This document shows positions 21,585 through 51,321 of a stretch of DNA of 53,978 nt, piece by piece. Made by a program: the position numbers and the translations under genes. The notes below the pieces were generated by a model. It made no database searches and had not been told where the DNA came from. It worked only from the letters and a program-made list of their open reading frames with translations. The stretch is from contig CAJQSZ010000034.1 of NCBI GenBank assembly GCA_905618805.1, positions 1-53,978 of the forward strand, in the 5' to 3' direction. Within the stretch, counting starts at the first letter, position 1; each line of letters opens with the position of its first letter. This stretch comes from an uncultured Candidatus Pelagibacter sp. GTDB lineage: Bacteria > Pseudomonadota > Alphaproteobacteria > Pelagibacterales > Pelagibacteraceae.

Positions 21585-23270
21585 TTAAAATAAACCTTCT
21601 ATTTCACCATCTTTATTTAACTTAATAGAGTCTGCTGCTGGAACTCTTGGTAGTCCTGGCATGGTCATAACCGCTCCACAGACAACTACTATGAATTCTG
21701 CACCAGAGGAAAGTCTAATCTCTCTTATGGGTAAAGCATGTCCTGTTGGAGCGCCCTTTAAACTTGGATCTGTTGAAAAACTGTATTGAGTTTTTGCGAT
21801 ACAGATAGGAAAGTTCCCATAACCAGCTTCTTCAAAGCCTTTTAATTGATCTCTAATTTTTGTATCAGCAATAACTTCATCTGCTCTATAAATTTCTTTT
21901 GCAATCGTTTCAATTTTCTTAAATAGAGGAGTTTTACTTTCATATAAGAATTTGAATTTATCATCATTCTTTTCACATAATTCAGCTACATGGCTTGCTA
22001 ATTCTTTTGTTCCTTCTCCACCATTAGCCCAATGAGTACAAAGACTTGCTTTAACTCCAATACCATCACAAAATTCTATTAAAGCTTTCACTTCATTATC
22101 TGTATCCTTAATAAAATGATTAACCGCAACTGCAACAGGTAAGTTAAACTTTTTAACATTTTCAATATGTCTTTCAAGGTTAACTAACCCTTTTTTTAAA
22201 GCTTCGACATTTTCTGTTTTAAGCTCATCTTTAGCTATACCACCATGCATTTTTAATGCTCTTATAGTTGCAACAATCACAACACAGCTTGGTTTTAAAT
22301 CAGATTTTCTACATTTTATATCAAGAAATTTTTCAGCACCTAAGTCAGCACCAAAACCCGCTTCTGTAACAACATAGTCGGCAAGTTTTAATCCAGTTTT
22401 AGTTGCAATTACTGAATTACAACCATGTGCTATATTTGCAAATGGTCCACCATGAATAATTGCAGGGTTATTTTCTAATGTTTGAGTTACATTAGGTCTA
22501 ATTGCATCTTTTAGTAATACAGTCATTGGACCATGAGCTTTTAAATCCTTAGCATAGACTGGCTTTTTATTCCGAGTATATGCAATTGTAATATTTCCTA
22601 TTCTTTTTTCTAAATCACCCAAATCATTTGATAGGCAGAAAATTGCCATGATTTCAGAGGCAACAGTTATGTCAAAACCGTCTTCTCTTGGAAAACCATT
22701 TGCTACACCACCTAGATTTATATTTATTGACCTTAAAGAACGATCATTCATATCCATTACTCTTTTCCAAACAATTCTTCTAACATCTATATCCAATTTA
22801 TTTCCCCAATAGATATGGTTATCAATCAAAGCTGATAATAAATTATGAGCAGACGTTATTGCATGGAAATCTCCAGTAAAGTGTAAATTAATCTGCTCCA
22901 TTGGAACAACCTGAGCATAACCACCACCAGCAGCACCACCTTTCATTCCAAAAGAAGGTCCAAGACTTGGTTCTCTTAAACAAACAATAGATTTTTTTCC
23001 AATTTTATTTAATCCATCACTCAAACCAACAGAAGTTGTAGTTTTACCTTCACCAGCTGGTGTAGGAGTAATTGCAGTTACTAAAATTAGTTTTCCATTG
23101 GGTTTATCTTTTAAAGTGTCTAAATATTCTAAGTTAATTTTTGCGATATGTCTGCCCATTGGGCTAAAAGCTGTACTTTCATCAGGTACATTTATTTTTG
23201 CTAAAATATCATTTATAGGTTGCATTTTAGCCTCTCTAGCTATCTGAATATCTGACTTAACTTCACTCAT
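21585..23270 (-). CDS. fhs: Formate-tetrahydrofolate ligase
   Basis: A 561-aa enzyme of the usual length. The ATP-binding P-loop is [17 protein letters not shown] (around residues 68-83); other hallmarks are [36 protein letters not shown] and [19 protein letters not shown]. It interconverts formate plus tetrahydrofolate and 10-formyl-tetrahydrofolate with ATP. In methyl-oxidising SAR11 it can run in the direction that releases formate and conserves ATP. The start has a good AGGAG site. It is divergent from soxBDAG, whose product is methylene-tetrahydrofolate, which is a functional link. Confidence 0.97.
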
Positions 23271-23400: not shown

Positions 23401-24657
23401 ATGCAAAAATACTCTATATTTAATCTAATAAAAAATGCTTTTTCTAGTCATCAAAATTGGGACCTAGCCTGGAAAGATGCAACTCCAAAAAAAGAATATG
23501 ATGTTGTTATTATTGGTGGTGGAGGCCATGGTTTAGCTACTGCATACTATCTAGCCAAAGAACACAATATTACGAATGTAGCTATCATTGAAAAAGGATG
23601 GCTTGGTGGTGGAAATATGGGAAGAAATACTACAATTATAAGATCAAATTATATGTACGACGATAATGCATTGTTTAGTGAGTTTGGAATGGATCTTTGG
23701 AGAAAGATGAGTCAGGATTTAAATTACAACGTAATGTTTTCTCCAAGAGGAATAATTAATCTTGCACACTCAGATGCTCAAATGAATGTTTTTGCAAGAA
23801 GAGGTAATTCAATGCGTTTAAATGGGATTGATGCAGTTCTTTTAAATAGAGAGGAGGTAAAAGAAATTATTCCAATGGCAGACTTTTCAGACAATGTTAG
23901 ATTTCCTATATATGGTGGATTAATGCAACCAAGTGCGGGAACAGCAAGACATGATGCTGTAGCTTGGGGTTATGCACGTCAAGCAGACTCAATGGGGGTA
24001 GATATAATTCAAAATTGTGAAGTAACTGGATTCGATGTTTCGGGGGGGAAAATTAATGGTGTCAGAACTTCTAGAGGAGATATTAAGGTTAAAAAAATTG
24101 GCTTATGTGTTGCGGGTAGTACAAATATTTTAGCTGAAAAATTGAATATGATAATACCAGTAGAAACTCATCTTCTTCAAGCGTGTGTTACAGAACCTGT
24201 AAAACCTGTGTTAGATAGTGTGGTTACTTTTGGAGCAGGACATTTTTATATTAGTCAATCTGATAAAGGTGAAATGGTAATGGGAGGTGATCTGGATGGA
24301 TATAATAGTTATGCCCAAAGAGGAAATTTACCAACACTCCAACATGTACTAACAGAAGGAATTGCAATGATGCCGTTTCTAAGTAAATTAAAAATGCTTA
24401 GAACATGGGGAGGGATTATGGATATGTCTATGGATGGCTCACCCATTATTGATAAAACTCATATTGAAGGATTGTATTTAAATTGTGGTTGGTGTTATGG
24501 TGGGTTCAAAGCTACACCGGCATCAGGGTGGACATTTGCTCATACAATTGCACAAGACAGAGTTCACAAATTAAATGAAGGTTACAGTTTAAGCAGATTT
24601 AACACAGGCCACCTACTTGATGAAAAAGGACTTGGAACAAAAACTTGGATTTCATAA
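23401..24657 (+). CDS. soxB: Sarcosine oxidase beta subunit / N-methylglutamate dehydrogenase subunit A
   Basis: A 418-aa DAO-family flavoprotein. VVIIGGGGHGLATAYYLAKE is the FAD site. GGGNMGRNTTIIRSNYMYDD is typical of heterotetrameric sarcosine oxidase, and His184 in TARHDAVAWGYA aligns by count with the covalent-FMN histidine (His173) of the Corynebacterium enzyme. LYLNCGWCYGGFKATPASGWTFAHTIA closes the FAD site. It oxidises the N-methyl group of sarcosine or, in the Mgd reading, N-methylglutamate. The operon soxB-D-A-G has gaps of 0, 3 and -4 nt. The two substrates cannot be told apart here. Confidence 0.9.
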   Translation: MQKYSIFNLIKNAFSSHQNWDLAWKDATPKKEYDVVIIGGGGHGLATAYYLAKEHNITNVAIIEKGWLGGGNMGRNTTIIRSNYMYDDNALFSEFGMDLWRKMSQDLNYNVMFSPRGIINLAHSDAQMNVFARRGNSMRLNGIDAVLLNREEVKEIIPMADFSDNVRFPIYGGLMQPSAGTARHDAVAWGYARQADSMGVDIIQNCEVTGFDVSGGKINGVRTSRGDIKVKKIGLCVAGSTNILAEKLNMIIPVETHLLQACVTEPVKPVLDSVVTFGAGHFYISQSDKGEMVMGGDLDGYNSYAQRGNLPTLQHVLTEGIAMMPFLSKLKMLRTWGGIMDMSMDGSPIIDKTHIEGLYLNCGWCYGGFKATPASGWTFAHTIAQDRVHKLNEGYSLSRFNTGHLLDEKGLGTKTWIS

Positions 24658-24924
24658 ATGCTACATATTAAATGTCCACATTGTGGAATGAGATCACAAA
24701 ATGAATTTTCCTACGGAGGTGATGCAAGCGTTAAAAGGCCAGAGTTAAATAAAGAAATTTCAGACCAGGATTGGGATAATTTTGTTTACAATAGAAAAAG
24801 TTTAAGAGGAAAACACATCGAATTTTGGCAACACTTATCAGGATGTAGACAGTGGATTAAAGTAGAGAGAGACACTGCCACTCATGAAATATTTAAAACA
24901 TTAAAAGCTAACGAAGATTTTTAA
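24658..24924 (+). CDS. soxD: Sarcosine oxidase delta subunit (zinc-binding)
   Basis: An 88-aa protein with the family zinc site Cys6, Cys9 (IKCPHCGMR), His59 and Cys63 (QHLSGCRQW). This subunit stabilises the heterotetramer. It begins on the base after the soxB stop. The equivalent subunit in N-methylglutamate dehydrogenase is MgdB. Size and ligand spacing are normal. Confidence 0.92.
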   Translation: MLHIKCPHCGMRSQNEFSYGGDASVKRPELNKEISDQDWDNFVYNRKSLRGKHIEFWQHLSGCRQWIKVERDTATHEIFKTLKANEDF

Positions 24925-24927
24925 AAA

Positions 24928-27924
24928 ATGAAACAAAATTTTAGATTAGATAATATTGGATTAATAAATAGAGATAAGAAATTATCGTTTAAATTTAATG
25001 GAAAAAGCTACTCTGGTTATGAGGGGGATACATTGGCATCTGCACTGCTTGCTAATGGAGTTCATTTAATTGGAAGAAGTTTTAAATATCATAGACCAAG
25101 AGGCTTTTTTGGTGCTGGAGTTGATGAACCATATGCAATTGTTCAGCTATATAGAAATAATGAGACAGAACCCAATGTGAAATCTACAGAACAGGAGCTT
25201 TTTGAAGGATTAGAAGCAACCAGTGTTAATTGTTGGCCTAGTGTAAATTTTGATATTGGAGCAATTAATAATTTTTTAAAAGTATTTCTTCCAGCTGGAT
25301 TTTATTACAAGACATTTATGTGGCCGAAAAGTTTTTGGTATAAATTTTATGAACCAATTATCAGGAAGGCAGCTGGTCTTGGTGTAGCATCAATTAAACA
25401 TGATAAAGAAAGATATGAACATAAGTATGAGTACTGTGATTTATTAATTGCTGGGTCTGGCCCATCAGGTTTAGCTAGTGCATACGCTGCTGCAAAAAAT
25501 GGAGCAAGAATAATATTGGCAGAAGACAAGCCAAGATTTGGAGGAACATTATTAACTAGTGAAGTTAATATTGGAAACCAAACAGGGAAGGAGTGGGTAA
25601 AAAATATAATTGCTGAACTTAAAAAAATGCCCAATGTTACTGTGAAAAATAGATCTCAGGTTTTTGGTTATTATGATCATAACATGTTAGTTATGTTAGA
25701 AAAAATAAGTGATCACTTACCTAAAACAAGAAAATATCATCCAAAACAAAGACTTTGGTATATCAGAGCAAAAGAAGTTTTAATTTCATCAGGATCGATT
25801 GAAAGGCCATTAGTTTTTGGAAATAATGATACACCAGGTGTAATGCTGTCATCAGCAGCAAAAGAATATTTAAAAGTCTATGGAGTGTTAGTTGGGAAAA
25901 AACCTTTAATATTTACAAACAACGACAGTGGCTATGAAGCTGCAATAGAGTTTAAAAAAAATGGAGTTGAGCCAGTCATATTAGACACTAGAAAAGAACC
26001 TAACTCAGAAATAATAGAAGAAGCAAAAAATTTAGGTATACAAATTAAATTTTCCTATGTAGTTGTTGCTGCAAAGGGTTATAAAAAAGTAAATGCTGCA
26101 GAAATTGCTAAAATTTCAGATAACAAAAATGAATTAGGGGTTTTAGAAAATATTATTTGTGATTGTATTTGTGTATCTGGTTTTTGGACACCAACAATAC
26201 ATTTAGCATCTCAATCAGGTAATAAAACTAAATTTGATAAGGATATAGATGCTTTTGTGCCCGGTATATCAAAACAAAATGAAACTACCTTAGGAGCAGC
26301 AAATGGAACATTCACACTTGCAGAAACTTTAAAAGATTCATTTAATGCTGGTTATGAACTATCAAAAAAAATAACTAAAAATGATAATAAAATTTCATAT
26401 CCTAAAGTTGTTGAAAAAAATAAAACAACCCATGATAAATTTTGGTGTGTTCCCTTACCAAAGGGAAAAACTTATAAAAGATTTTTAGATTTTCAAAATG
26501 ATGTGGCTGTTTCAGATATAGAAATTGCTCTAAAAGAAGGGTATCGATCAATTGAACATGTAAAAAGATACACAACGCTTGGAATGGCCACAGACCAAGG
26601 AAAAACAAGCAATCTCAATGGTTTGCAGTTAGTTTCAAATATAGAAAATAAAATTGTTCCAGAAGTAGGTCATACTACCTTTAGACCTCCGTATACACCA
26701 GTTACTATTGGTGCAATTGTTGGAAGAGAAGTGGGAAAATATTCGAGACCAACAAGAAAATCACCGATACACTCTTGGCATGAAAAAAATAATGCAGTAT
26801 TTGTTGATGCAGGTGTTTGGTTGAGACCAAGATATTATAAAATTGGAGAAGAAACTTTATTTGAAGGTTCAAAAAGAGAAGCTAAAAATGTTAGAGCAAA
26901 TGTTGGTGTATGTGATGTAACTACTTTAGGAAAGATAGATATTAAAGGACCTGATGCAGCAGAATTATTAAATAGAGTATATACAAATGCTTGGTTAAAA
27001 CTTCCAGTTGGTAAAGCAAGATATGGTGTAATGTTAAGAGAAGATGGAATTGTAATGGATGACGGAACCACTACTAGAATTTCAGAAAACCATTATCACA
27101 TGACAACAACTACTGCTCAAGCAGCAAACGTTTTATCGCACCTTGAATATTATTTGCAATTAGTATGGCCAGAATTAAATGTTAATGTAGTTTCTTCAAC
27201 AGAACAATGGGCAGGAGCGGCTATTGCAGGACCTAAATCCAGAGACTTGTTGCAGAAATTATTTCCAAATATAGATTCATCAAATGATGGCCTGCCATTT
27301 ATGGGTTATTTAGAAGGAGAATTATTTGGTGTCCAAGCAAGAATTTTTAGAATTTCATTTTCAGGTGAACTTGCATATGAAGTTAATGTCAACTCAGATA
27401 ATGGAAACTTCATGTGGGAAAAAATTATGGAAATTGGTAAAGAATTTGAAATCCAACCGTATGGAACTGAAGCATTATCAACATTAAGAATTGAGATGGG
27501 ACATGTAGCTGGTTCGGAGTTAGATGGTAGAACAATTTCTTATGATAATGGTTTAGAAGGACTGATTAGTAAAAAGAAAGACTTTATTGGCAAGAGATCA
27601 TTAAATAGAAAAGCTTTTATAGCAGAAGATAGACAAAAAGTTGTTGGAGTTGTTCCACTGGATAAAAAAACTAGTATTCCAGAAGGATCCCACTTAGTAA
27701 AAGATGCGTATGCACAACTTCCAAATCCTAAATTGGGATATATCTCAGCATCTTGCTGGAGTGTAGAACATGATAACCCATTTTCTCTAGCTATTCTCAA
27801 AGATGGAAAAAATATGATTGGCCAAAAGTTATTTGTAATGTCACCATTAAAAAACATAACAATACCTGTTGAAATAGTTTCTTCGCATTATGTGGATCCA
27901 AAAGGTGAAAGAGTAAGATCATGA
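24928..27924 (+). CDS. soxA: Sarcosine oxidase alpha subunit / N-methylglutamate dehydrogenase subunit C
   Basis: A 998-aa subunit. The N-terminal region (residues about 15-90) is a ferredoxin-like fold with GRSFKYHRPRGFFGAGVDEP. A dinucleotide-binding domain follows with LLIAGSGPSGLASAYAAAKN (residues about 171-190), and GSIERPLVFGNNDTPGVML belongs to the same part. The last 400 residues are a GcvT-type tetrahydrofolate domain (GVCDVTTLGKIDIKGPDAAE, ISFSGELAYEVNV, ALSTLRIEMGHVAG). The domain traps the released methyl group as methylene-tetrahydrofolate. Its stop overlaps the soxG start by 4 nt. The length is normal for the family. Confidence 0.93.
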   Translation: MKQNFRLDNIGLINRDKKLSFKFNGKSYSGYEGDTLASALLANGVHLIGRSFKYHRPRGFFGAGVDEPYAIVQLYRNNETEPNVKSTEQELFEGLEATSVNCWPSVNFDIGAINNFLKVFLPAGFYYKTFMWPKSFWYKFYEPIIRKAAGLGVASIKHDKERYEHKYEYCDLLIAGSGPSGLASAYAAAKNGARIILAEDKPRFGGTLLTSEVNIGNQTGKEWVKNIIAELKKMPNVTVKNRSQVFGYYDHNMLVMLEKISDHLPKTRKYHPKQRLWYIRAKEVLISSGSIERPLVFGNNDTPGVMLSSAAKEYLKVYGVLVGKKPLIFTNNDSGYEAAIEFKKNGVEPVILDTRKEPNSEIIEEAKNLGIQIKFSYVVVAAKGYKKVNAAEIAKISDNKNELGVLENIICDCICVSGFWTPTIHLASQSGNKTKFDKDIDAFVPGISKQNETTLGAANGTFTLAETLKDSFNAGYELSKKITKNDNKISYPKVVEKNKTTHDKFWCVPLPKGKTYKRFLDFQNDVAVSDIEIALKEGYRSIEHVKRYTTLGMATDQGKTSNLNGLQLVSNIENKIVPEVGHTTFRPPYTPVTIGAIVGREVGKYSRPTRKSPIHSWHEKNNAVFVDAGVWLRPRYYKIGEETLFEGSKREAKNVRANVGVCDVTTLGKIDIKGPDAAELLNRVYTNAWLKLPVGKARYGVMLREDGIVMDDGTTTRISENHYHMTTTTAQAANVLSHLEYYLQLVWPELNVNVVSSTEQWAGAAIAGPKSRDLLQKLFPNIDSSNDGLPFMGYLEGELFGVQARIFRISFSGELAYEVNVNSDNGNFMWEKIMEIGKEFEIQPYGTEALSTLRIEMGHVAGSELDGRTISYDNGLEGLISKKKDFIGKRSLNRKAFIAEDRQKVVGVVPLDKKTSIPEGSHLVKDAYAQLPNPKLGYISASCWSVEHDNPFSLAILKDGKNMIGQKLFVMSPLKNITIPVEIVSSHYVDPKGERVRS

Positions 27925-28508
27925 CCTCCATATCCGCTCTAGAAAAAATTCATTTAAAAGGTCTTTTTGGTGATTATGGGGATAAAAATGAAAAAGATTT
28001 ATTAAAGATTTCAGAAACTAAAGATTTATTAATCATTCAGATAGTTCAATATAAAAATTCTTCAACTTCTTTAGAGAGCTTAAAAATTGATGATTTAAGC
28101 TTAAAGAATGAAGCCCTTAATGTGTCTAGTAATTTTGACACAAGGATTTTATGGAATGGACCAAATAATTGGCTTTTAGTTTCAAAAAAAAAAGATCTTT
28201 TAAAAGAAATTGTTAGAAAATTTGATGAAAATAACTTTGCTGTTACCAATTTATCCAATTCAAGAGCAATAATTGAGCTTGAGGGTGAAAATGCAAAAGA
28301 AGTACTAAAAAAAGGATGCCCTTATAATTTTAATGAATTAAAAAAAGATAACTGTTTAAACTCAACATTTAATGGCATGTCGGTTACAATTGATTTGTTA
28401 GACAACAATCCAAATAAAATAAGAATATTTACCTTAAGAAGTTTTGGAGAATCTTTATACCACTCGATTACAGATAACTGCTTAGAGTTTGGTTACAAAA
28501 GTATTTAA
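27921..28508 (+). CDS. soxG: Sarcosine oxidase gamma subunit
   Basis: A 195-aa protein, last gene of the soxBDAG operon and overlapping soxA by 4 nt. WNGPNNWLLVS and NLSNSRAIIELEGENAKEVLKKGCPYN match the family's GcvT-derived fold. The gamma subunit is the most diverged part of the complex and has no catalytic residues. It converges with the EamA transporter gene, overlapping it by 4 nt. MgdD is the alternative name. Confidence 0.87.
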   Translation: MTSISALEKIHLKGLFGDYGDKNEKDLLKISETKDLLIIQIVQYKNSSTSLESLKIDDLSLKNEALNVSSNFDTRILWNGPNNWLLVSKKKDLLKEIVRKFDENNFAVTNLSNSRAIIELEGENAKEVLKKGCPYNFNELKKDNCLNSTFNGMSVTIDLLDNNPNKIRIFTLRSFGESLYHSITDNCLEFGYKSI

Positions 28509-38784: not shown

Positions 38785-40143
38785 TTAACCTTTAACGACT
38801 TCTCTTGTGTTTGCGTTAAAAGATTCTTTAAATGGAATGTCCACTACTACTGCATCAACAGGCGTTCCTGGTTTATCAGAGTATTCCGCTGGTAAATGAA
38901 CTTTATATTTAGTCCCAACTTTACCTTTTGGAAAACCATTAGCATTTAATGTTCCATCAAAGGGTACATATCCCATGGCTATATTCTGCTTTTTTTCTGG
39001 ATGATACCAAGGAGACGTAATAAATCCAACGGGATCTCCACCATCTTCATTTGACACTAACCAAAAATCAGGAGCATACTCTTCAATAGGTTTTCCACCC
39101 ATTTCAAGTCCAACTAACTGAAGTTTGTAGGGTTTTTTCCCATCCTTAATTTCAGCACCCATTTTTTCTAAAGCAGCTTTACCAACATAGTCAGCTTTCT
39201 TATTCCACTCACCTTTACCAGCTAATGAAACTTGATAACCAAGGTTACACTGGAAGGGGTTATGTTGATGATCCATATCTTGTCCCCAAGAAAGAATTCC
39301 AGCTTGAATTCTTCTATGGTGAGCAGGAGCAATAACCATTAGTTTGTGTTTTTTACCCGCTTCAAGAACTGCATTCCACATATCATCAGCATATTTAGTT
39401 GCTTCTCTTAAGTAGATTTCATATCCAGCTTCACCTGAGAAACCAGATTGTGAAATTACACAACTTCTGCCACCAACCTTAACCTCAGCTAAACCATAGA
39501 AAGGCATGTTGTCCAAATCTACCTGGTCACCAAGTAAATCCTTCATTAATGCTTTAGACTTTGGTCCTTGGATTTGAACTGGACACACATCAATTTCTTC
39601 GATTGTGCAATCAAATCTTCCATCAGCATTAACACCTTGAAGATACATTCCAATATCAGAGTCTGATAATGAGAACCAAAATTCATCTTTTGAAATTCTA
39701 AGAAGAATTGGATCATTCAAAACACCACCATAAGCATTACATAAAATTACGTATCTTGCTCTCATAGGTGAGATTTTAGTTGCATCTCTAGTTATTACAT
39801 AGTCGGTAAACTTTTCTGCATCGGGACCTTTAACTCTAATTTGTCTTTCAACAGCAACATTCCACATTGTAACGTGATTAACAATTGCATCATACTCAAC
39901 CATCGCACCACCATCTTCTGGTTTTACATATCCTCTAGGATGATAAATACGATTGTAAACAGTTGCTCTCCAACAACCAGCTTCCATTGATAGATGCCAG
40001 TATGGAGACTTTCTTACTCTTGTTGAGATTAACATTTCAACTTTTGTAGGCCCACTTTGTCTTAAGTTGTATGGTACTTCACGATCTGATTGATCAACTG
40101 AAGTCACATGATTTAGTTTAGTATAGTCAAATTCTTTAGACAT
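38785..40143 (-). CDS. DmdA-like GcvT-family aminomethyl/methyltransferase
   Basis: A 452-aa tetrahydrofolate-dependent protein. GGVLNDPILLRISKDEFWF, SLSDSDIGMYL, SGFSGEAGYEIYL and RRIQAGILSWGQDMDH closely resemble DMSP demethylase DmdA as I recall it. It differs by an N-terminal extension of about 45 residues and a longer C-terminal part (DmdA has about 370 aa). It should remove a methyl group to tetrahydrofolate as 5-methyl-THF. The coupled MetF-like gene upstream (8-nt overlap) is just what is needed to oxidise 5-methyl-THF. Substrate unknown: DMSP, a betaine or an O-methyl compound. The family is secure, the substrate not. Confidence 0.8.
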   Translation of the reverse strand: MSKEFDYTKLNHVTSVDQSDREVPYNLRQSGPTKVEMLISTRVRKSPYWHLSMEAGCWRATVYNRIYHPRGYVKPEDGGAMVEYDAIVNHVTMWNVAVERQIRVKGPDAEKFTDYVITRDATKISPMRARYVILCNAYGGVLNDPILLRISKDEFWFSLSDSDIGMYLQGVNADGRFDCTIEEIDVCPVQIQGPKSKALMKDLLGDQVDLDNMPFYGLAEVKVGGRSCVISQSGFSGEAGYEIYLREATKYADDMWNAVLEAGKKHKLMVIAPAHHRRIQAGILSWGQDMDHQHNPFQCNLGYQVSLAGKGEWNKKADYVGKAALEKMGAEIKDGKKPYKLQLVGLEMGGKPIEEYAPDFWLVSNEDGGDPVGFITSPWYHPEKKQNIAMGYVPFDGTLNANGFPKGKVGTKYKVHLPAEYSDKPGTPVDAVVVDIPFKESFNANTREVVKG

Positions 40144-40876
40144 AACCGTTCTCCTTCAACCACTTGTTAGTTTCCTTCAAGCCGCCGAATGTATAAATGT
40201 GGAAGTTTCCAGTAAATTCCTTCACTTTCCCAATTAATTCATTAGGGTCTTTAGGTTTCAATAAATCTAATGCCTTACTAAAATTAGACTTAAGAAAGTT
40301 AATGGAATTTTTTGCCCCTACAATATTAGCAAATTTTATTAAGCTAGATATTTTCATTGGCCCAGTAATTCCTACATGCACTGGCACTGACTGCTTAGAA
40401 ATGAAATCTATGATAGGTTGACTCTCTAGTAACCACTGGGTCACTATATAGTCGGCATAAGGCTTTTTATCTATCATGGCTTTTTCTAATTTTGTATCGG
40501 ACATATCTTGACTTCCTTCTGGATGTCCTGCTATTCCTATTTTAATTCCGTCAAAAAATCCTGTCTCTAAAATTTGAATTGAGCTGTCAAATTTTCCAAT
40601 CGGATCTCTACTTCCTCCAATTACCAAAGCTTGTTTTGCACCAACATCTTTACATCTTGAAATATAATCTTTCAGCTGATCTTCATCAGTAATTGATCGT
40701 GCTGGAAAATGTGGAACTGGATTAAATCCTTTTTTCACCAAATCACCTGATTTTTCAGCTGTCTCTTTATAGTCTCCACCGGGAAGCATGGTAACATAAA
40801 CATCCTTAACAGGAGGTAGTGTGTCTAAATCTGTGTGAGGACCAACCTCAAGAGAAAAATTCATTTTTCCGATCAT
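40136..40876 (-). CDS. Short MetF-like methylenetetrahydrofolate reductase
   Basis: A 246-aa TIM-barrel protein starting MIGKMNFSLEVGPHTDLDTL; this ATG is preferred to an upstream TTG. VTMLPGGDYKETAEKSGDLV, VPHFPARSITDEDQLKDYI and ALVIGGSRDPIGKFDSS match the MetF family, and HVGITGPMKISSLIKFA its C-terminal side. It is shorter than typical MetF (about 290 aa). It would interconvert 5-methyl- and 5,10-methylene-THF with a flavin. The 8-nt overlap with the DmdA-like gene suggests it works in the oxidative direction for that demethylase. Confidence 0.82.
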   Translation of the reverse strand: MIGKMNFSLEVGPHTDLDTLPPVKDVYVTMLPGGDYKETAEKSGDLVKKGFNPVPHFPARSITDEDQLKDYISRCKDVGAKQALVIGGSRDPIGKFDSSIQILETGFFDGIKIGIAGHPEGSQDMSDTKLEKAMIDKKPYADYIVTQWLLESQPIIDFISKQSVPVHVGITGPMKISSLIKFANIVGAKNSINFLKSNFSKALDLLKPKDPNELIGKVKEFTGNFHIYTFGGLKETNKWLKENGYV

Positions 40877-40963
40877 TATCTTTTTTGTAAAAGCTGTCAA
40901 AGAAATTCATCTTGTGGACAAAGATAATTGTTGTCAAAAGTTTCTCCAATGTTAGGATTTTTT

Positions 40964-42160
40964 ATGGGTAAAAAAGATGACAATTCTTTGCTATCAGCAA
41001 TCCTTGACCTTAAAAAAATAGAGGCTGTTGATAAACCGATTGAGGAAGCTCATGGCCTTCCTAATGAGTGTTATACCAGTAGTAAATACCTAAAGATTGA
41101 AAGAGACAAGATATTCTCAGATAAATGGACTGTAATTGGTGTTGGAAGTTCAATTCCAGATATAGGAGACGCCAAACCATATGAGCTTTTGGGGATACCC
41201 TTAATTATGATTAGAGGAAAAGATCAGAAAATTAGAGTTTTTCATAATGTTTGTAGTCACAGAGGGTTAAAGATCTTAAGTGAACCTTGCAGCCTAAAGA
41301 ATGTCTTAAGATGCCCATATCATTCGTGGGCGTATGATTTTAGAGGCTCCTTAGTTGCAACCCCCCATATAGGTGGCTTAAATATTCATCAAGTAGATAA
41401 CTTTGATAAATCCAAGAGTAACCTAAAAGAGGTCAGATCTAAGATTTGGATGGATATGATTTTTATTAATTTAAACAATAATGAAATGGAATTTAATGAT
41501 TATATTAAACCACTTGAGGCTAGGTGGTCAAAATTTATATCCAAAGATGATCAACAACTAATAAGACACGCTAAGGATTATGGTTACATTGATCTAAATG
41601 TTAAGAGTAACTGGAAATTTGCAATTGAAAATTATTGTGAGAGCTATCATTTACCAACTATTCATCCTGAGTTAAATAAAACGTCAAATATAAGCGATCA
41701 TTACCATATACAAGGGTTACCAAATAGATTTGCTGGACAGGGTAGTTATAAATACAATCAACCAGTTAAGGGAGATAAAAAATTTAATAGCTTTCCTTCT
41801 TGGCCAGAAGAGCTAGCTTTAAATGCAGAGTATGTTGCTTTATTTCCAAATGTTATGGTTGGTTTACACATAGACCACTTTTATATTTTTTGGTTAGAGC
41901 CTATATCTACCAATGAAACTAAAGAACATATCGAGATGTATTATGTTGGGGAAGAGAGCGCTTATGGTGATAACTTTAAGGAAATGAGAAAAGAAAATTC
42001 AAAATTTTGGAAAGAAGTTATGACAGAAGATATTTTTGCTATTGAAGGAATGCAAGCAGGTAGAGCCTCACTAGCATATAATGGGGGTAATTTTTCACCA
42101 GTTATGGATAATCCAACCCATCAATTTCACAAGTGGATTGCAACAAATCTGATAGCTTAA
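40964..42160 (+). CDS. Rieske-type oxygenase, choline/glycine-betaine monooxygenase-like
   Basis: A roughly 398-aa oxygenase alpha subunit; the ATG at 40964 follows AGGA at 6 nt, while an ATG at 40949 has no such site. The Rieske 2Fe-2S ligands are CSHRGL and CPYHSW. The catalytic iron site is NWKFAIENYCESYHLPTIHP, with two His and the bridging Glu seen in betaine-type members. Such enzymes demethylate or hydroxylate N-methyl compounds with electrons from a reductase, which is absent nearby. It is divergent from the MetF-like gene across 87 nt, forming a probable functional unit with it and the DmdA-like protein. Confidence 0.85.
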   Translation: MGKKDDNSLLSAILDLKKIEAVDKPIEEAHGLPNECYTSSKYLKIERDKIFSDKWTVIGVGSSIPDIGDAKPYELLGIPLIMIRGKDQKIRVFHNVCSHRGLKILSEPCSLKNVLRCPYHSWAYDFRGSLVATPHIGGLNIHQVDNFDKSKSNLKEVRSKIWMDMIFINLNNNEMEFNDYIKPLEARWSKFISKDDQQLIRHAKDYGYIDLNVKSNWKFAIENYCESYHLPTIHPELNKTSNISDHYHIQGLPNRFAGQGSYKYNQPVKGDKKFNSFPSWPEELALNAEYVALFPNVMVGLHIDHFYIFWLEPISTNETKEHIEMYYVGEESAYGDNFKEMRKENSKFWKEVMTEDIFAIEGMQAGRASLAYNGGNFSPVMDNPTHQFHKWIATNLIA

Positions 42161-42224
42161 TTTTAAAAATTCCTATAATATCGATTTTTTTATTAACCCA
42201 TATGTGCAGAAAGTAATAATCACT

Positions 42225-42629
42225 ATGAAAAAAATATTAATTATGGGTTTACCTGGTTCAGGAAAAACAACTTTAGCAAAAAACTTGGTACCATTAATAA
42301 ATGCAAAATGGATTAATGCAGATGAAGTGAGAAAAGCTGCAGATGATTGGGATTTTTCAGAGGATGGAAGAAAAAGACAAGCTAAAAGAATGGCAGAAAA
42401 AGCAGAAAAACACAAGCAAGATGGCAACCATGTAGTTGCAGACTTTATTTGCCCAACACCTGCTGCTAGAGAGTTATTTAATGCAGACTATATAGTTTGG
42501 GTTGATACTATAAAAGAAGGAAGGTTTGCTGATACAAATGCCATGTTTGTAAAACCAGAAAAATATGATTATCATGTAACAACACAGGATGCTGAAAATT
42601 GGGCTCCTAAAATAGCAAAGGAAATATAA
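42225..42629 (+). CDS. P-loop kinase, adenylylsulfate-kinase-like
   Basis: A 134-aa P-loop protein; the ATG at 42225 is preferred to a GTG at 42204. Walker A is LIMGLPGSGKTTLAKNL. INADEVRKAADDWDFSEDGR and VVADFICPTPAARELF parallel APS kinase, and VWVDTIKEGRFADTNAMF is a further shared block. It is shorter than true CysC. The nucleotidyltransferase gene follows at 2 nt, so the pair may phosphorylate and nucleotidylate an unknown alcohol or acid; a real APS kinase role is doubtful. Confidence 0.75.
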   Translation: MKKILIMGLPGSGKTTLAKNLVPLINAKWINADEVRKAADDWDFSEDGRKRQAKRMAEKAEKHKQDGNHVVADFICPTPAARELFNADYIVWVDTIKEGRFADTNAMFVKPEKYDYHVTTQDAENWAPKIAKEI

Positions 42630-42631
42630 AT

Positions 42632-43006
42632 ATGGCTCACGAATGGGATAATAAAAAACCAACAGCACAAATGTTAGGAAGATGGCAACCATTTCATGAT
42701 GGTCATTATGCATTATTTCAAGAAATAGTTAAAAAAACAGGTCAAGTTTGTATTCAAATAAGAGATGTGCAAGGTGTTGACGATAACCCATTTGATTTTG
42801 AGACTGTCAAAAAAAATATTGAAGAAAAGCTAAACCCAGAATTCGAAGGGCAATTTAAAGTGATGATGGTGCCAAATATTACCAACATTTGTTATGGAAG
42901 AGGTGTTGGGTATAAAATTGAAGAAGTAGTATTATCTGAAGAGATACAGCAAATATCAGCTACAAAAATTAGAGCTAAAATGAGAGAAGATGGAAAGCTT
43001 GAGTAA
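42632..43006 (+). CDS. Small nucleotidyltransferase (cytidylyltransferase-like)
   Basis: A 124-aa protein of the HxGH nucleotidyltransferase fold. GRWQPFHDGHYALFQEI contains the HDGH version of the signature, and QQISATKIRAKMRED the C-terminal ISxTKIR motif that binds the triphosphate. It would join a nucleotide to a phosphate-bearing compound. It lies 2 nt after the kinase gene and overlaps the crotonase gene by 17 nt. Acceptor unknown. Confidence 0.8.
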   Translation: MAHEWDNKKPTAQMLGRWQPFHDGHYALFQEIVKKTGQVCIQIRDVQGVDDNPFDFETVKKNIEEKLNPEFEGQFKVMMVPNITNICYGRGVGYKIEEVVLSEEIQQISATKIRAKMREDGKLE

Positions 43007-45543: not shown

Positions 45544-47976
45544 ATGAAATCTAAAGCAAAAGTTGTAGTAGTTGGTGGTGGTGTAGTAGGAGTAAGTGCT
45601 CTTTATCACTTAGCAAAAAAAGGTTTATCAGATGTTGTTCTTGTCGAGAGAAAAGAATTAACTTCAGGATCAACTTGGCACGCAGCAGGTCTGCTTCCAT
45701 TATTCAATATGAGTTATTCGGTTGGACAACTTCACAAGTATGCAGTTGATCTTTATAAAAAATTAGAAGAAGAGACTGGACAGAATGTTGGTTTCAGTGT
45801 TGTGTCAAATATTCGTTTAGCAAGCACCAAAGATCGAATGGATGAGTATCATCAGTATGCAGGTGTTGCACAAACTATAGGTGTTGATGTAAAATTTTTA
45901 ACGCCAGATGAAGTAAAAGAAATTTGGCCTCTATGTCGTACAGATGATTTGCTTGGAGCAATCCAACACCCAGAAGATGGCTATATTCAGCCTGCTGATT
46001 TAACTCAAGCAATGGCTACGGGTGCAAGAAATATGGGTGCAGAAATTTATAGAAACACAGCTGTAGTTGGAATTAAACAAACTAAAGATGGATGGGTTGT
46101 TGAAACTGACAAGGGACCTATTGAATGTGAACATGTAATTTCTTGTTCAGGAAACTTTGCAAGACAAACTGGAAAAATGGTTGGTTTAGATATTCCTGCC
46201 ATACCTGTTGAGCATCAATATATTGTTACAGAAGCACACCCAGATATTTTAAAGAGAAAAAAAGAAGGCTTACCAGAGATGGGAGTTTTAAGAGATAGTG
46301 ATAGCAGATGGTACATGAGAGAAGAAGCAGGTGGTTTAATTTTAGGACCCTATGAAGATGGTGCTCCAGCTTGTTATGTTGATGGACCATCAAAAGATTC
46401 TGAGTATGAATTATTTCAAGAAGATTTAGATAGACTGGCTCCACATATTGAAGGTGCAATTCATCGAGTTCCAGCCTTTGGAGAGGTGGGTGTTAAAAAA
46501 GTTTATAATGGTGCAATTTGTTATACACCAGATGGAAACCCTATTGTTGGTCCAGCTTGGGGACTTAAAAATTTTTGGATTAATGAAGGACATAGTTTTG
46601 GTATTACTGCAGCAGGTGGAGCGGGTTGGCAACTTGCTGAATGGATAGTTGATGGAGAACCAACGGTTGATATGCTCGGTGTTGATCCAAGACGATTTGG
46701 TGACTATGCAACAAAATCATACTTAAAAGAAAAGAATGAAGAAGCTTACAATCATGTATTTAAAGTTCATTATCCTGATGAAGAAAGAGGTGCTGCTAGA
46801 GAATTAAGAACATCACCTTGTTATGACAGAATGAAAGATTTAGGTGCTGTATTTGGACAAAAATTTGGTTGGGAGAGACCAAACTTCTTTGCAACAGATG
46901 GAATGGAGCAAAAAGACGATTGGTCTTTTAGAAGATCCAAGTGGTTTGAAGCAATAAAAAAAGAATGTAAAAATGTAAAAGAAAATGTGGGTCTTTTAGA
47001 TATGACTGCATTTGCAAAGTGTAGAATTAAAGGTCCTGGTGCAGAGGAGTTTTTAGATTATTTAGTAGCTAACAAACTTCCAAAAAAAATAGGAAGAATT
47101 GGTTTATGTCATGCCCTTAATACTAAGGGAGGAGTTCATTCTGAATTTACGATAATGAGAGAAGCATCAGATAGTTTCTATTTAGTCTCTGCAGGAGCAA
47201 ATCAAAGATTAGACCATGATTGGATTCAAAAATGGATGCCAACTGATGGGACAGTTCAATTTGAAAATTTAACCAATAGTATGGGTGTACTTGTTGTATC
47301 TGGTCCAAAAGCTAGAGAATTAATGACAAGAGTATCAAGAGATGACTTCTCAAAAGAAAACTTTAAATGGTTAAGTGCCAAAAACGTAAACGTTGGAAAC
47401 GCTCCAGTGAATGCTATGAGAGTAAACTTTGTTGGTGAGTTGGGTTGGGAGCTTCATCATCCAATTGAATATCAAAATCATATATTTGATAAATTGATGG
47501 AAGCAGGAAAAGATTTAGGTATTAAGCCATATGGGATTAGAGCAATGAATAGTTTGAGACTTGAAAAATCTTATAAACTTGTTGGAACAGAATTATCAAT
47601 TGAATACTCTCCCTACGAATCTGGGTTAGATAGATTTATACATCCTAATAAAGGAAACTTTATTGGTCTGGATGCACTTAATCAATGGAGAGAAAAAGGT
47701 TTTTCAAATAAATTAGTAACAATGGAAATTCATAACGTTGAAGATGCAGATGTTTTGGGTAATAATCCAATTTATGAAAATGGTAAAGTTGTAGGACGTG
47801 CAACTGGAGGTGATTTTGGATTTAGGTTAGGAAAATCTATTGCATTAGGAATGATAAAACCTGATATTGCGACAACTGGTCAAAAATTGAAAATTGATAT
47901 TCTTGGTAAAATGTATGATTGTACTATTTTAGAGGAAAGCCCTTATGATCCTGAAAATAATTTATTGAGATCATAA
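45544..47976 (+). CDS. Dimethylglycine dehydrogenase-like flavoprotein with GcvT domain
   Basis: An 810-aa two-domain enzyme. The N-terminal DAO half has [20 protein letters not shown] and [14 protein letters not shown], where His46 is in the position of the covalent-FAD histidine of DMGDH. The C-terminal half (about residues 430-810) is GcvT-like: [54 protein letters not shown]. It demethylates dimethylglycine or sarcosine, gives methylene-THF, and passes electrons to ETF. The etfB gene starts on its last base (TAATG overlap). The substrate is likely dimethylglycine; sarcosine or another methylamine is possible. Confidence 0.87.
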
Positions 47977-48725
47977 TGAAAATATTAGTCGCTGTTAAAA
48001 GGGTAATTGATTACAACGTTCAAGTTAGAGTTAAAGAGGATGGAACTGGAGTCGTTACAGATAATGTTAAAATGTCTAGTAACCCACCTGATGACAATGC
48101 AATTGAAGAAGCTGTAAAAATTAAAGAAGCAGGTAAAGCAACAGAAATTATTGCAATTACAGTGGGTGAAGAAAAGTCACAAGAAACAGTAAGAAAAGCT
48201 TTAGCAGTGGGTGCTGATAGAGGAATATTAATCAAAACCGAAGGAACTGTTGAGCCATTAGCTGTAGCAAAAGCACTTCAAAAAATTGTTGATAAAGAAA
48301 AACCAGACTTAGTATTTATGGGTAAACAAGCAATTGATGATGATTGTAACCAGACAGGTCAAATGTTAAGTGCCTTATTAAATTGGCCTCAAGCAACATT
48401 TGCATCAAAAATTGAAATAAAAGATAAAATTCTAGAAGTAACAAGAGAAATCGATGAAGGATTAGAAACAATTGAAGTTAACCTTCCAGCTATTGTGACG
48501 TGTGATTTAAGATTAAATGAACCGAGATATGCGTCTTTACCAAATATTATGAAAGCTAAAAAAAAACCTATAGAGATATTTACAGCTGCAGACCTAGGGG
48601 TTGATATAACACCTAGAGTTCAACAAATTAAAGTAGAAGAACCACCTAAAAGAAAAGCAGGAATTAAAGTTGCAAGTGTTGCTGAATTAGTTAGCAAACT
48701 TAAAAATGAGGCAAAGGTAATATAA
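47976..48725 (+). CDS. etfB: Electron transfer flavoprotein beta subunit
   Basis: A 249-aa Etf[20 protein letters not shown] opens the family, [19 protein letters not shown] binds AMP, and [20 protein letters not shown] is the beta-family signature. With EtfA it carries single electrons from the dehydrogenase to ETF-QO. Its gene overlaps both neighbours by one base. Confidence 0.96.
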
Positions 48726-49678
48726 TGTCAGTTTTATTAATAGCAGAACATAACAACAAAGAAGTAAAACCTTTTACATTAAATGCAATTACTGCAGCAT
48801 CACAAATGGATACCGATGTACATGTTTTATTAATTGGAAATAATTGTGGTGATGTTGCTAAAGCATTATCTGAAATGTCAGCTGTTAAAAAGGTGTTGCA
48901 TGCTGAAGCTGCTCATTATGAAAACTATTTAGCTGAAAACTTTGCTCCATTAGTTGTAAAAGTTTCAGAAAATTATTCTCATATTGTTAGCTCTGCAAAT
49001 ACATTTGGTAAAAACTTAATGCCAAGAATAGCAGCACATTTAGATATATCTCAAGTAAGTGATATTACTAAAGTTATATCATCGGATACATTTATAAGAC
49101 CTATTTATGCAGGAAATGCATTTGCTACAGTAAAAAGCATAGATAAAAAAAAATGCATAACAATTAGACCAACTTCTTTTGAACCCTGTGAAACGTCTGG
49201 TGGATCTGCTCCAATAGAAAAAATGGAAGCAACTGAAGAATTTACTTTATCAAAATTTATTAAAAGAGAAGAGGTTAAATCAGATAGACCTGAGCTTGGA
49301 ACAGCTAGAATTGTAATTTCAGGTGGTAGAGGAATGCAGAATGGAGAGAATTTTAAATTGATTGCTGATATTGCAGATAAATTAAATGCTGCAATCGGCG
49401 CATCAAGAGCTGCAGTTGATGCAGGCTATATAAGCAATGAACACCAAGTTGGTCAAACAGGTAAAGTAGTTGTACCTGATTTATATATTGCAGTTGGAAT
49501 TTCAGGGGCAATTCAGCATCTAGCTGGAATGAAAGAAAGTAAAATAATTGTTGCTATAAATAAAGATGGTGAAGCTCCAATATTTAGTGTCGCAGACTAC
49601 GGTCTAGAAGCTGATTTATTTGAGGCATTACCTCAATTCCTAGAAGAATTGAATAAATTAAATAGTATACAAAAATAA
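48725..49678 (+). CDS. etfA: Electron transfer flavoprotein alpha subunit
   Basis: A 317-aa EtfA. The FAD site is GGRGMQNGENFKLIADIADK to YISNEHQVGQTGKVVVPDLY, then GISGAIQHLAGMKESKIIVA and EAPIFSVADYGLEADLF. It forms a heterodimer with EtfB. The gene begins on the last base of etfB. Confidence 0.96.
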   Translation: MSVLLIAEHNNKEVKPFTLNAITAASQMDTDVHVLLIGNNCGDVAKALSEMSAVKKVLHAEAAHYENYLAENFAPLVVKVSENYSHIVSSANTFGKNLMPRIAAHLDISQVSDITKVISSDTFIRPIYAGNAFATVKSIDKKKCITIRPTSFEPCETSGGSAPIEKMEATEEFTLSKFIKREEVKSDRPELGTARIVISGGRGMQNGENFKLIADIADKLNAAIGASRAAVDAGYISNEHQVGQTGKVVVPDLYIAVGISGAIQHLAGMKESKIIVAINKDGEAPIFSVADYGLEADLFEALPQFLEELNKLNSIQK

Positions 49679-49701
49679 TCAGTACTGTAAAAATTTAAGA
49701 T

Positions 49702-51321
49702 ATGCCTAGAGAAGCAATGGATTATGATGTGGTAATCGTTGGTGGTGGTCCATCAGGACTGTCTACAGCTATTAAGCTTAAACAATTAGATCCAGAATTA
49801 AATGTTTGTTTACTTGAAAAAGCTTCAGAGATTGGTGCCCATATTTTAAGTGGTAACGTGTTTGAAACTAGAGCTTTAGACGAGCTATTTCCTAACTGGA
49901 AAGAGTTAAATGCACCAGTTAAAACAAGGGTTTTAAAAGAAAAATTCTTATTTTTGAGTAAAACAAAATCTTTAAGTTGGCCAACTTGGCTACTTCCTTC
50001 AGTTCAGCAAAATCATAATAATTATATAATAAGTTTAGCAAACCTATGTAGATGGCTTGCAGAACAAGCTGAAGCTTTAGGTGTTGAAATATTTCCAGGA
50101 TTTCCTGCTAGTGAAATTTTATACAATGAAGATGGATCAGTTAAGGGAGTTGCAACTCAAGATATGGGAGTTGATAAAGCTGGAAACAAAAAAGATGGCT
50201 TTGAACCAGGCATAGAGCTTTTAGGAAAAGTCACTGTTTTTGCAGAAGGATGCAGAGGACATCTTGGAAAACAATTAATTGAAAAATATAATTTATCAGA
50301 AGATAAAGATCCTCAACAATATGGAATTGGATTTAAAGAAATTTGGGAAATCAGTGAACAAAATCATGAAGAAGGAATGGTAATGCATACTGCAGGTTGG
50401 CCACTTGATAATAATATTTATGGTGGAAGCTTTATCTATCATGCAGAAAACAAACAAGTTTTTTTAGGTTATGTAATTGGTCTTGATTATAAAAACCCAC
50501 ATCTTTCACCGTTTGATGAATTTCAAAGATTTAAAACTCACCCTGCAATTAAAAAGATAATTGAAGGTGGAAAACGTATTTCTTATGGAGCAAGAGCCCT
50601 AATCGAAGGTGGTTTACAAAGTTTACCCAAAATGTTTATGCCAGGTGCCTTGTTAATTGGGTGTGATGCAGGAACATTAAATATGCCTAAAATTAAAGGC
50701 TCTCACACAGCAATGAAGAGTGGAATGATTGCAGCTGAATCAATAATTGAAAGTATAAAAGAAAATAAAGATTTATCTAATTATGAAGATAGGTTTAAAA
50801 AAAGCTGGATATATAATGAACTATATAGGGCTCGAAATGTTAAGCCTAGTTTTAGTTGGGGGCTGATACTTGGAATAATATTTACAGGAATTGATCAAAT
50901 TTTATTTCAAGGTAAATTACCTTTTACATTGAAACATAAACATGTAGATCACGAAACATTAAAACCAGCAAATAAAATGCCAAAAATTAATTACCCAAAA
51001 CCTGATAATATTATAACTTTTGACAAAACAAGTTCAGTTTATTTAACTGGTACTAATCATGCTGATAATCAACCCGTACACCTTCAGCTTAAAGATCCTA
51101 ATTTACCAATTAGTTACACTTTAGAAAAATTTGATGAACCAGCACAAAGATATTGTCCTGCAGGAGTGTATGAAGTTCAAAAAGAGAACGGTATAAATAA
51201 ATTTATAATTAATTCACAAAATTGCATTCATTGTAAAACTTGTGATATCAAAGAACCTTCCCAGAATATTACCTGGGTTACACCTGAAGGAAGCGGTGGA
51301 CCTAAATACGGTAATATGTAA
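49702..51321 (+). CDS. etfD: Electron transfer flavoprotein-ubiquinone oxidoreductase
   Basis: A 539-aa ETF-QO of normal length. The FAD site is DVVIVGGGPSGLSTAIKLKQ, with ASEIGAHILSGNVFETRAL following; GALLIGCDAGTLNMPKIKGSHTAMK is the second FAD block. The C-terminal 4Fe-4S domain shows CPAGVYEV and NCIHCKTCDIKEP. It passes electrons from ETF to ubiquinone at the inner membrane. It follows etfA by 23 nt and completes the chain DMGDH to ETF to quinone. Confidence 0.95.
   Translation: MPREAMDYDVVIVGGGPSGLSTAIKLKQLDPELNVCLLEKASEIGAHILSGNVFETRALDELFPNWKELNAPVKTRVLKEKFLFLSKTKSLSWPTWLLPSVQQNHNNYIISLANLCRWLAEQAEALGVEIFPGFPASEILYNEDGSVKGVATQDMGVDKAGNKKDGFEPGIELLGKVTVFAEGCRGHLGKQLIEKYNLSEDKDPQQYGIGFKEIWEISEQNHEEGMVMHTAGWPLDNNIYGGSFIYHAENKQVFLGYVIGLDYKNPHLSPFDEFQRFKTHPAIKKIIEGGKRISYGARALIEGGLQSLPKMFMPGALLIGCDAGTLNMPKIKGSHTAMKSGMIAAESIIESIKENKDLSNYEDRFKKSWIYNELYRARNVKPSFSWGLILGIIFTGIDQILFQGKLPFTLKHKHVDHETLKPANKMPKINYPKPDNIITFDKTSSVYLTGTNHADNQPVHLQLKDPNLPISYTLEKFDEPAQRYCPAGVYEVQKENGINKFIINSQNCIHCKTCDIKEPSQNITWVTPEGSGGPKYGNM

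Follow-up and report, generated by a model that had tools for sequence, protein, structure and literature searches.

We propose that a DmdA-like protein encoded in a SAR11 genome, designated here as DmdAL, is a tetrahydrofolate (THF)-dependent demethylase with glycine betaine as its likeliest substrate, a reading that draws on gene context and distribution and that we hold with moderate confidence. The gene lies on a 53,978-nucleotide stretch of DNA from an uncultured Candidatus Pelagibacter sp. (contig CAJQSZ010000034.1 of assembly GCA_905618805.1; the whole stretch is referred to as the window). DmdAL is a 452-residue member of the GcvT superfamily; its gene (38785–40143, minus strand) is accompanied by a gene for a MetF-like protein (40136–40876, minus strand), from which a gene for a Rieske oxygenase alpha subunit (40949–42160, plus strand) diverges. 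The relatives of DmdAL form a clade that extends over several phyla and occurs beside MetF and dimethylglycine dehydrogenase (DMGDH)-type genes far more often than control regions do. The pair of DmdAL and MetF was known before but had no assigned function, and what we add is the proposal of a widespread family of THF-dependent glycine betaine demethylases.

Glycine betaine, which is abundant and protects cells against salt, is important as an osmolyte in the sea, and it is oxidized by SAR11. If our proposal is correct, the burning of betaine carbon would be explained by a folate-linked enzyme that is paired with an oxidative MetF, and the idea comes down to one testable gene, which is also present in culturable Marinobacter, Halomonadaceae, and Arthrobacter.

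DmdAL and its relation to DmdA

DmdAL contains the Pfam domains GCV_T and GCV_T_C. Its best curated family is the dimethylsulfoniopropionate (DMSP) demethylase model NF009133/PRK12486, to which it scores 232.4 bits, under the equivalog cut-off of 410; DmdAL members from Marinobacter and Arthrobacter score 264.3 and 254.9 bits. It also stays below the curated cut-offs for LigM/DesA (36.6 and 42.1 bits; cut-offs, 580 and 800) and for GcvT (131.5, 150.4, and 116.1 bits; cut-offs, 235.85, 300, and 459). In a tree of 53 rows, built with a quick method without bootstrap and having a long outgroup branch, 28 DmdAL rows formed their own clade apart from 24 DmdA-like rows, with an SH-aLRT support of 96; five rows were omitted from it (the genome's own GcvT, the SoxA C-part, two DMGDH C-parts, and L187, which is the window's own copy). 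DmdAL is 27–29% identical to the seven DmdA rows that exceed the cut-off (L172, L173, L176, L178, L181, L182, and L188), and an N-terminal block, VP.NLRQSG, is invariant across 22 DmdAL rows. By these sequence criteria DmdAL belongs to the DmdA type but falls outside canonical DmdA, in agreement with a preliminary description of the locus, which had also suggested the tree as a check. The N-terminal extension relative to DmdA, estimated there at about 45 residues, proved to be 31 residues long, with residue 1 of DmdA pairing with residue 32 of DmdAL.

An AlphaFold model of DmdAL based on a 45-row alignment reached a pLDDT of 89; an earlier model from 22 similar sequences was dropped (pLDDT 64). 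The best PDB match of the model was DmdA (3tfh; Z 44.8, rmsd 1.9 over 368 residues), followed by GcvT and DMGDH, with LigM at Z 24.7. Residues E242, Y244, D161, and D163 are the same as in DmdA in 28/28 rows and S162 in 27/28; this count includes L055 (53% identity), which had been excluded from the DmdAL set in the first residue scan. Excerpts of PMC7487153 name folate-binding residues of DmdA and a Trp (W171) that is key to DMSP. In our own mapping, E242, Y244, and D161-S162-D163 would correspond to the former, and Trp197 of DmdA to the latter. At the Trp197 position, 27/28 DmdAL rows have Phe (Phe235) and one has Trp. Comparison with the active site of DmdA, which had likewise been recommended, indicates that the residues mapped to the folate site are kept while the DMSP-linked Trp is replaced by Phe235. 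However, the latter mark is only suggestive because another non-DmdA group has Trp at the DMSP-linked position in 8/8 rows. DmdAL also departs from DmdA at W49, H68, H275, and W286, which are candidates for a cage that binds a cation. In several genomes, a group of DmdA-like genes (L191–L196; 364–398 bits to PRK12486, under the cut-off) was found beside DmdAL, some of these genomes also having DmdA.

The closest solved relative being DmdA, DmdAL might be expected to act in DMSP degradation. Excerpts of Sun et al. (2011; PMC3160333) describe SAR11_1265, a DmdA-like aminomethyltransferase without a known substrate that adjoins metF (SAR11_1264), and speculate that it takes the second methyl group of DMSP, i.e., that of methylmercaptopropionate (MMPA). 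Canonical DmdA exceeded its cut-off in 11 of the 16 DmdAL genomes tested, including all eight of the same genus other than the window's own, incomplete genome, which speaks for this idea. The remaining five (G002, G004, G429, G544, and the incomplete own genome) had no DmdA over the cut-off, DmdAL also occurs in records titled Arthrobacter, Brevibacterium, and Gemmatimonadetes, and most clusters of DmdAL loci have one-carbon neighbors. In addition, MMPA is a thioether and a poor methyl donor. We therefore regard a role of DmdAL in removing the second DMSP methyl group as highly improbable.

Gene context, the MetF-like partner, and the Rieske gene

A collection scan yielded at least 577 DmdAL relatives. 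The best 80 of the 577 were used as named loci, so distant members are under-sampled; their titles, which may mislead since many of the loci are metagenome-assembled genomes (MAGs), include Alpha- and Gammaproteobacteria (Marinobacter, Halomonadaceae, and SAR86), Arthrobacter, Brevibacterium, Gemmatimonadetes, and others. Genes were counted up to 10 kb on each side of DmdAL, and the loci were grouped into 27 clusters at 85% identity. Near DmdAL, the 80 loci have DMGDH in 55 cases, MetF in 48, SoxB in 27, formate-THF ligase (Fhs) in 22, a GbdR-like regulator in 17, and a Rieske protein in 1; counting any member of a cluster, the respective numbers are 18, 16, 7, 7, 4, and 1 of the 27 clusters, and 25 clusters have a marker other than Rieske. 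At least one of MetF, DMGDH, SoxB, and Fhs occurs in 63/80 loci, and MetF and DMGDH occur together in 40/80. Forty control windows of 20 kb were placed evenly, not randomly, in four alphaproteobacterial genomes. Compared with these, the cluster representatives are strongly enriched in MetF (15/27 vs. 0/40, p = 5e-8) and DMGDH (16/27 vs. 1/40, p = 2e-7) and weakly in Fhs and SoxB (each 6/27 vs. 1/40, p = 0.015), whereas Rieske is not enriched (1/27 vs. 0/40). The 16 alphaproteobacterial loci include nine with DMGDH, seven with SoxB, and one with Fhs. Near a Marinobacter DmdAL, the GbdR-type regulator scores 504.8 bits (cut-off, 480), and in one Arthrobacter locus the genes for serine hydroxymethyltransferase and FolD adjoin DmdAL.

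The MetF-like open reading frame (ORF) of the window spans 40136–40900 when read from TTG (254 residues) and overlaps the DmdAL ORF by 8 nt, as the preliminary description had stated; the sequence and the starts of homologues make the ATG at 40876 the likelier start. The protein remains below the gathering score of PF02219 (14.7 vs. 24 bits), with no Pfam match at E 0.001. Its nearest solved structure is the methylenetetrahydrofolate reductase (MTHFR) of Sphingobium SYK-6 (7xg9; E 1.3e-31, next best 0.37), and the partner MetF of Rhodospira is likewise nearest to this protein (4.9e-56 vs. 2.8e-9). According to excerpts of a review (PMC13001107), the SYK-6-type MTHFR subfamily preferentially oxidizes CH3-THF and has coevolved with LigM. 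By analogy, the MetF-like partner probably runs in the oxidative direction. SAR11 possesses neither MetE nor MetH to use the methyl group, as stated in excerpts of PMC12478193, and therefore 5-methyl-THF would accumulate unless it were oxidized. In the locus L159, titled Pelagibacteraceae, the MetF and a neighboring membrane protein are 79 and 80% identical to those of the window.

Within the order, DmdAL matches at E ≤ 1e-60 were found in 211/247 genomes, eight of which (best E 9e-63 to 2.5e-70) are probably canonical DmdA, leaving 203. Eighty genomes were examined for gene order; they were chosen for having listed DmdAL coordinates and are not a measure of DmdAL frequency. MetF adjacency was scored in all but six of them, and in 74/74 the MetF gene directly adjoins that of DmdAL in the same orientation. 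DmdAL and MetF are thus a real conserved unit in the order, and the coupling of DmdAL to a MetF, now recognizable as one of the SYK-6 kind, was correctly anticipated in the preliminary description.

The invariable presence of MetF beside DmdAL in the genomes of the order suggests 5-methyl-THF, and therefore a methyl rather than a methylene product of DmdAL. This bears on another possibility, namely that DmdAL transfers no methyl group and instead accepts methylene groups for DMGDH or sarcosine oxidase, as a GcvT-like protein. Such a function would suit a GcvT superfamily member that is encoded beside DMGDH and Sox genes. However, the DMGDH-type protein and SoxA of the window have GCV_T domains of their own, and DmdA is the nearest protein to DmdAL in both fold and sequence. 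We consider a methylene acceptor quite unlikely.

The Rieske ORF (40928–42160, 410 residues from TTG) probably starts at ATG 40949 or 40964, judging from the sequence and homologue starts, which leaves a gap of about 70–90 bp between the divergent MetF and Rieske genes; the ORF coordinates confirm all three genes of the preliminary description at their positions. The protein has both the Rieske and the catalytic domain (Pfam) and falls closest to the carnitine/glycine betaine monooxygenases. Among solved structures, that of the carnitine monooxygenase CntA (6y8j; E 2e-35) is the nearest, and the alignment with CntA shows that the CxH and CxxH motifs are retained, together with a Glu in the Glu column of CntA, which we take to mark quaternary-amine oxygenases. 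Its score to GbcA is 127.7 bits, under the curated cut-off of 670. A Pfam scan of 30 proteins of the window, in which ORFs of at least 120 residues number 52, revealed no reductase of the GbcB/CntB type, consistent with the earlier remark that the gene has no reductase, and an Rfam scan of the window gave no family at the gathering score.

The products of the three genes had been proposed to process one methylated substrate, the Rieske enzyme taking one methyl group and DmdAL another. They are neighbors in the window, and a Rieske match at E ≤ 1e-100 is present in 58 of the 80 DmdAL genomes of the order: less than 1.5 kb from DmdAL, directly beyond MetF, in 20, at 1.5–5 kb in 20, at 5–10 kb in 15 (i.e., within 10 kb in 55/80), and farther away or on another contig in 3. 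The distant locus L092, an alphaproteobacterial MAG, even has MetF, DMGDH, GbdR-like, and Rieske genes near DmdAL. Nevertheless, the remaining 22 genomes have no match at this threshold, although some are near-complete (e.g., G048, G062, G040, and the f2 genomes G002 and G004), and a Rieske gene of the window's type is near DmdAL in just one of the 80 named loci. Conservation of the trio therefore stood as frequent proximity and failed as a rule, and of the earlier interpretation the DmdA-type protein coupled to MetF is retained but the single-substrate trio is not; we regard the latter as very unlikely. The Rieske gene is a frequent neighbor and not a fixed part of the unit, and its product is probably a separate accessory acting on a related methylated amine.

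Several other genes were noticed around the Rieske gene. Small genes for a P-loop protein resembling APS kinase/AAA_33 and for a nucleotidyltransferase-like protein follow it in the window (42204–43006) and likewise in several sampled loci. In L092 (2570–5149), the Rieske gene (42% identical to that of the window) lies directly beside a 58% homologue of the DAO protein encoded at 7756–9084 of the window. In L082 (8118–10297), a gene for a 405-residue protein with FGE-sulfatase and DinB_2 domains (EgtB-like) and a 320-residue ORF separate MetF from the Rieske gene; as a guess, the latter ORF might be EgtD, giving an ergothioneine gene pair. A 209-residue protein resembling S-adenosylmethionine-dependent methyltransferases (Methyltransf_11; L082 10306–10932, L079 5730–6350) is encoded near Rieske/MetF in 7/20 sampled loci.

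The proposed route from glycine betaine

DmdAL was searched for at E ≤ 1e-100 in 385 alphaproteobacterial genomes and was found in 19, belonging to 13 families. In the same genomes, DMGDH-type proteins (PF16350) number 139, MTTB (E ≤ 1e-50) 81, and GbcA-like proteins (E ≤ 1e-120) 23; the MTTB and GbcA limits were fixed ahead of the overlap counting. A DMGDH-type protein is present in 19/19 DmdAL genomes (p = 1.7e-9), whereas MTTB or GbcA, with Bhmt uncounted, is present in 2/19 of them (G491 and G544) vs. 85/120 other genomes with a DMGDH-type protein (p = 7e-7). With one vote per family, the difference persists (2/13 vs. 39/56, p = 0.0005), and in families f30 and f66 one genome has DmdAL but neither MTTB nor GbcA while another shows the reverse. 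Such a distribution would be expected if a non-homologous enzyme had taken over the first step of betaine breakdown.

In the route from betaine through dimethylglycine to sarcosine, betaine alone is quaternary and hence closed to flavin dehydrogenases. Because the pairing with MetF implies a methyl product, betaine would be the substrate of DmdAL. In the mechanism that we infer, comprising methyl transfer, substrate, and MetF direction, DmdAL would convert betaine and THF to dimethylglycine and 5-methyl-THF, the methyl group passing to N5 without oxygen or cobalamin. The MetF-like partner would work in reverse, oxidizing 5-methyl-THF to 5,10-methylene-THF; the DMGDH-type protein and sarcosine oxidase would take off the next two methyl groups, forming methylene-THF directly, and folate oxidation would then yield formate and CO2. 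More tentatively, DmdAL could be the first demethylase known to move a methyl group from a quaternary ammonium directly to THF with no need for oxygen, zinc, or cobalamin. This aerobic enzyme would have spread, apparently by transfer, among Pseudomonadota, Actinomycetota, Gemmatimonadota, and other groups, and in SAR11 it would be the main entry to betaine burning, with Bhmt serving the supply of methionine only.

Several observations weigh against this proposal. To our knowledge, no enzyme moves a methyl group from a quaternary ammonium directly to THF without cobalamin; DmdA acts on a sulfonium and LigM on an aryl ether. As to the distribution, members of the MTTB superfamily act on several substrates, none of the 385 genomes has a GbcA-like match over the curated cut-off, shared ancestry is allowed for in the family-level test alone, and 35 genomes with a DMGDH-type protein have none of DmdAL, MTTB, and GbcA. 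Furthermore, 17/20 DmdAL genomes carry a Rieske protein with a sub-cut-off GbcA match, and a Rieske oxygenase of divergent sequence could thus perform the betaine step in DmdAL genomes. As to the context, 17/80 named loci, some of them on short contigs, have none of MetF, DMGDH, SoxB, and Fhs, including 7/8 titled SAR86 and that of Arthrobacter sp. C2; MetF is near just 4/16 alphaproteobacterial loci, and GbdR alone is not enriched (4/27 vs. 2/40 controls). Finally, excerpts of PMC12478193 propose Bhmt for the glycine betaine step of SAR11, calling it not experimentally validated, a proposal that stands against ours unless both enzymes exist for different ends. Bhmt would hardly carry energy metabolism, as it gives one methionine per betaine. 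In 6/20 sampled loci of the order, a homocysteine S-methyltransferase-type gene is near, together with a second DMGDH-type paralogue. In two loci (L074 1058–4505 and L078 12475–15001), the PF02574 gene, possibly Bhmt but under the curated cut-off, adjoins a DMGDH-type paralogue (about 36% identical to that of the window) and is divergent from MetF.

The window itself encodes candidates for the later steps of the proposed route. The DMGDH-type protein (45544–47976, plus strand; 810 residues with DAO, FAO_M, and GCV_T domains), which exceeds no NCBIfam cut-off, might act after DmdAL, and electron-transfer flavoprotein (ETF) beta, ETF alpha, and ETF-quinone oxidoreductase (47976–51321, plus strand; Pfam) might be its electron outlet. 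Sarcosine oxidase genes occupy 23401–28508 (plus strand): SoxB (23401–24657; TIGR01373, 660 bits) and SoxA (24928–27924; TIGR01372, 1300 bits) exceed their cut-offs, and a 195-residue ORF, with no Pfam match at 1e-8, could be soxG by position only. Fhs (21585–23270, minus strand; PF01268, 895 bits) would serve a late step of folate oxidation; in five f2 loci (L085–L089), Fhs is divergent from MetF. The own genome is 64% complete; of its seven GCV_T matches, six exceed the cut-off.

The same neighborhood leaves room for another quaternary ammonium or sulfonium compound (e.g., proline betaine, carnitine, choline, gonyol, or homarine), the product of which would feed the DMGDH/sarcosine route. 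The context points to a pathway and not to a molecule, and the window is a general methylated-amine island: it encodes a trimethylamine monooxygenase and a trimethylamine N-oxide demethylase (1159 bits), both over their cut-offs, an ammonium transporter, glutamate-synthase-like and glutamine-synthetase-like proteins, and an OpuAC protein with ABC transporter genes (Pfam/NCBIfam). In 5/20 sampled loci of the order, genes for OpuAC and a ProW-like permease are located upstream of MetF-DmdAL on the same strand, an arrangement that we also count in favor of glycine betaine; transporters of this type suit several betaines, and they reach no curated NCBIfam cut-off. By contrast, the 2/19 vs. 85/120 pattern concerns families that hold known glycine betaine demethylases, and DMGDH/SoxB-type neighbors act directly after glycine betaine. 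A substrate other than glycine betaine thus appears fairly unlikely to us.

Comparison with known systems

The preliminary description knew of no account of this trio; the pair, however, already appears in Sun et al. (2011) as SAR11_1265/1264, to which that of the window is most likely orthologous. The two genes are also listed, with parallel changes, in a table excerpted from Smith et al. (2016; PMC5069961). The word "rieske" does not occur in the text of PMC3160333. No THF-dependent glycine betaine demethylase appeared among the titles and abstract beginnings listed in a literature search that covered no preprints and few subscription journals, and the excerpts of PMC3691474 and PMC5395565 contain nothing on the DmdAL family. 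Like SAR11_1264/1265, the window pair consists of a DmdA-like gene adjoining metF; compared with the account in the excerpts of Sun et al., the extent of the family, the betaine context, and the SYK-6-type MetF are new here.

DmdAL shares with DmdA of Ca. Pelagibacter ubique (3tfh) the predicted fold and the folate-site residues and, by homology, probably methyl transfer to THF. It differs in its low identity and score, its separate clade, the Phe in place of Trp, and the VP.NLRQSG block. LigM/DesA with MetF in Sphingobium SYK-6 is likewise a THF-dependent demethylase system with an oxidative MetF (PMC13001107, excerpts), and the window MetF is nearest to that MetF, whereas DmdAL is distant from LigM (37 bits against 580; Z 24.7). 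A cobalamin route, MtgBCD, is given for glycine betaine in other marine bacteria (PMC12478193, 2025, excerpts). GbcAB, MtgBCD, and Bhmt form dimethylglycine, as proposed for DmdAL. They differ from it in their folds and in their cofactors, which are Rieske iron, cobalamin, and zinc, respectively.

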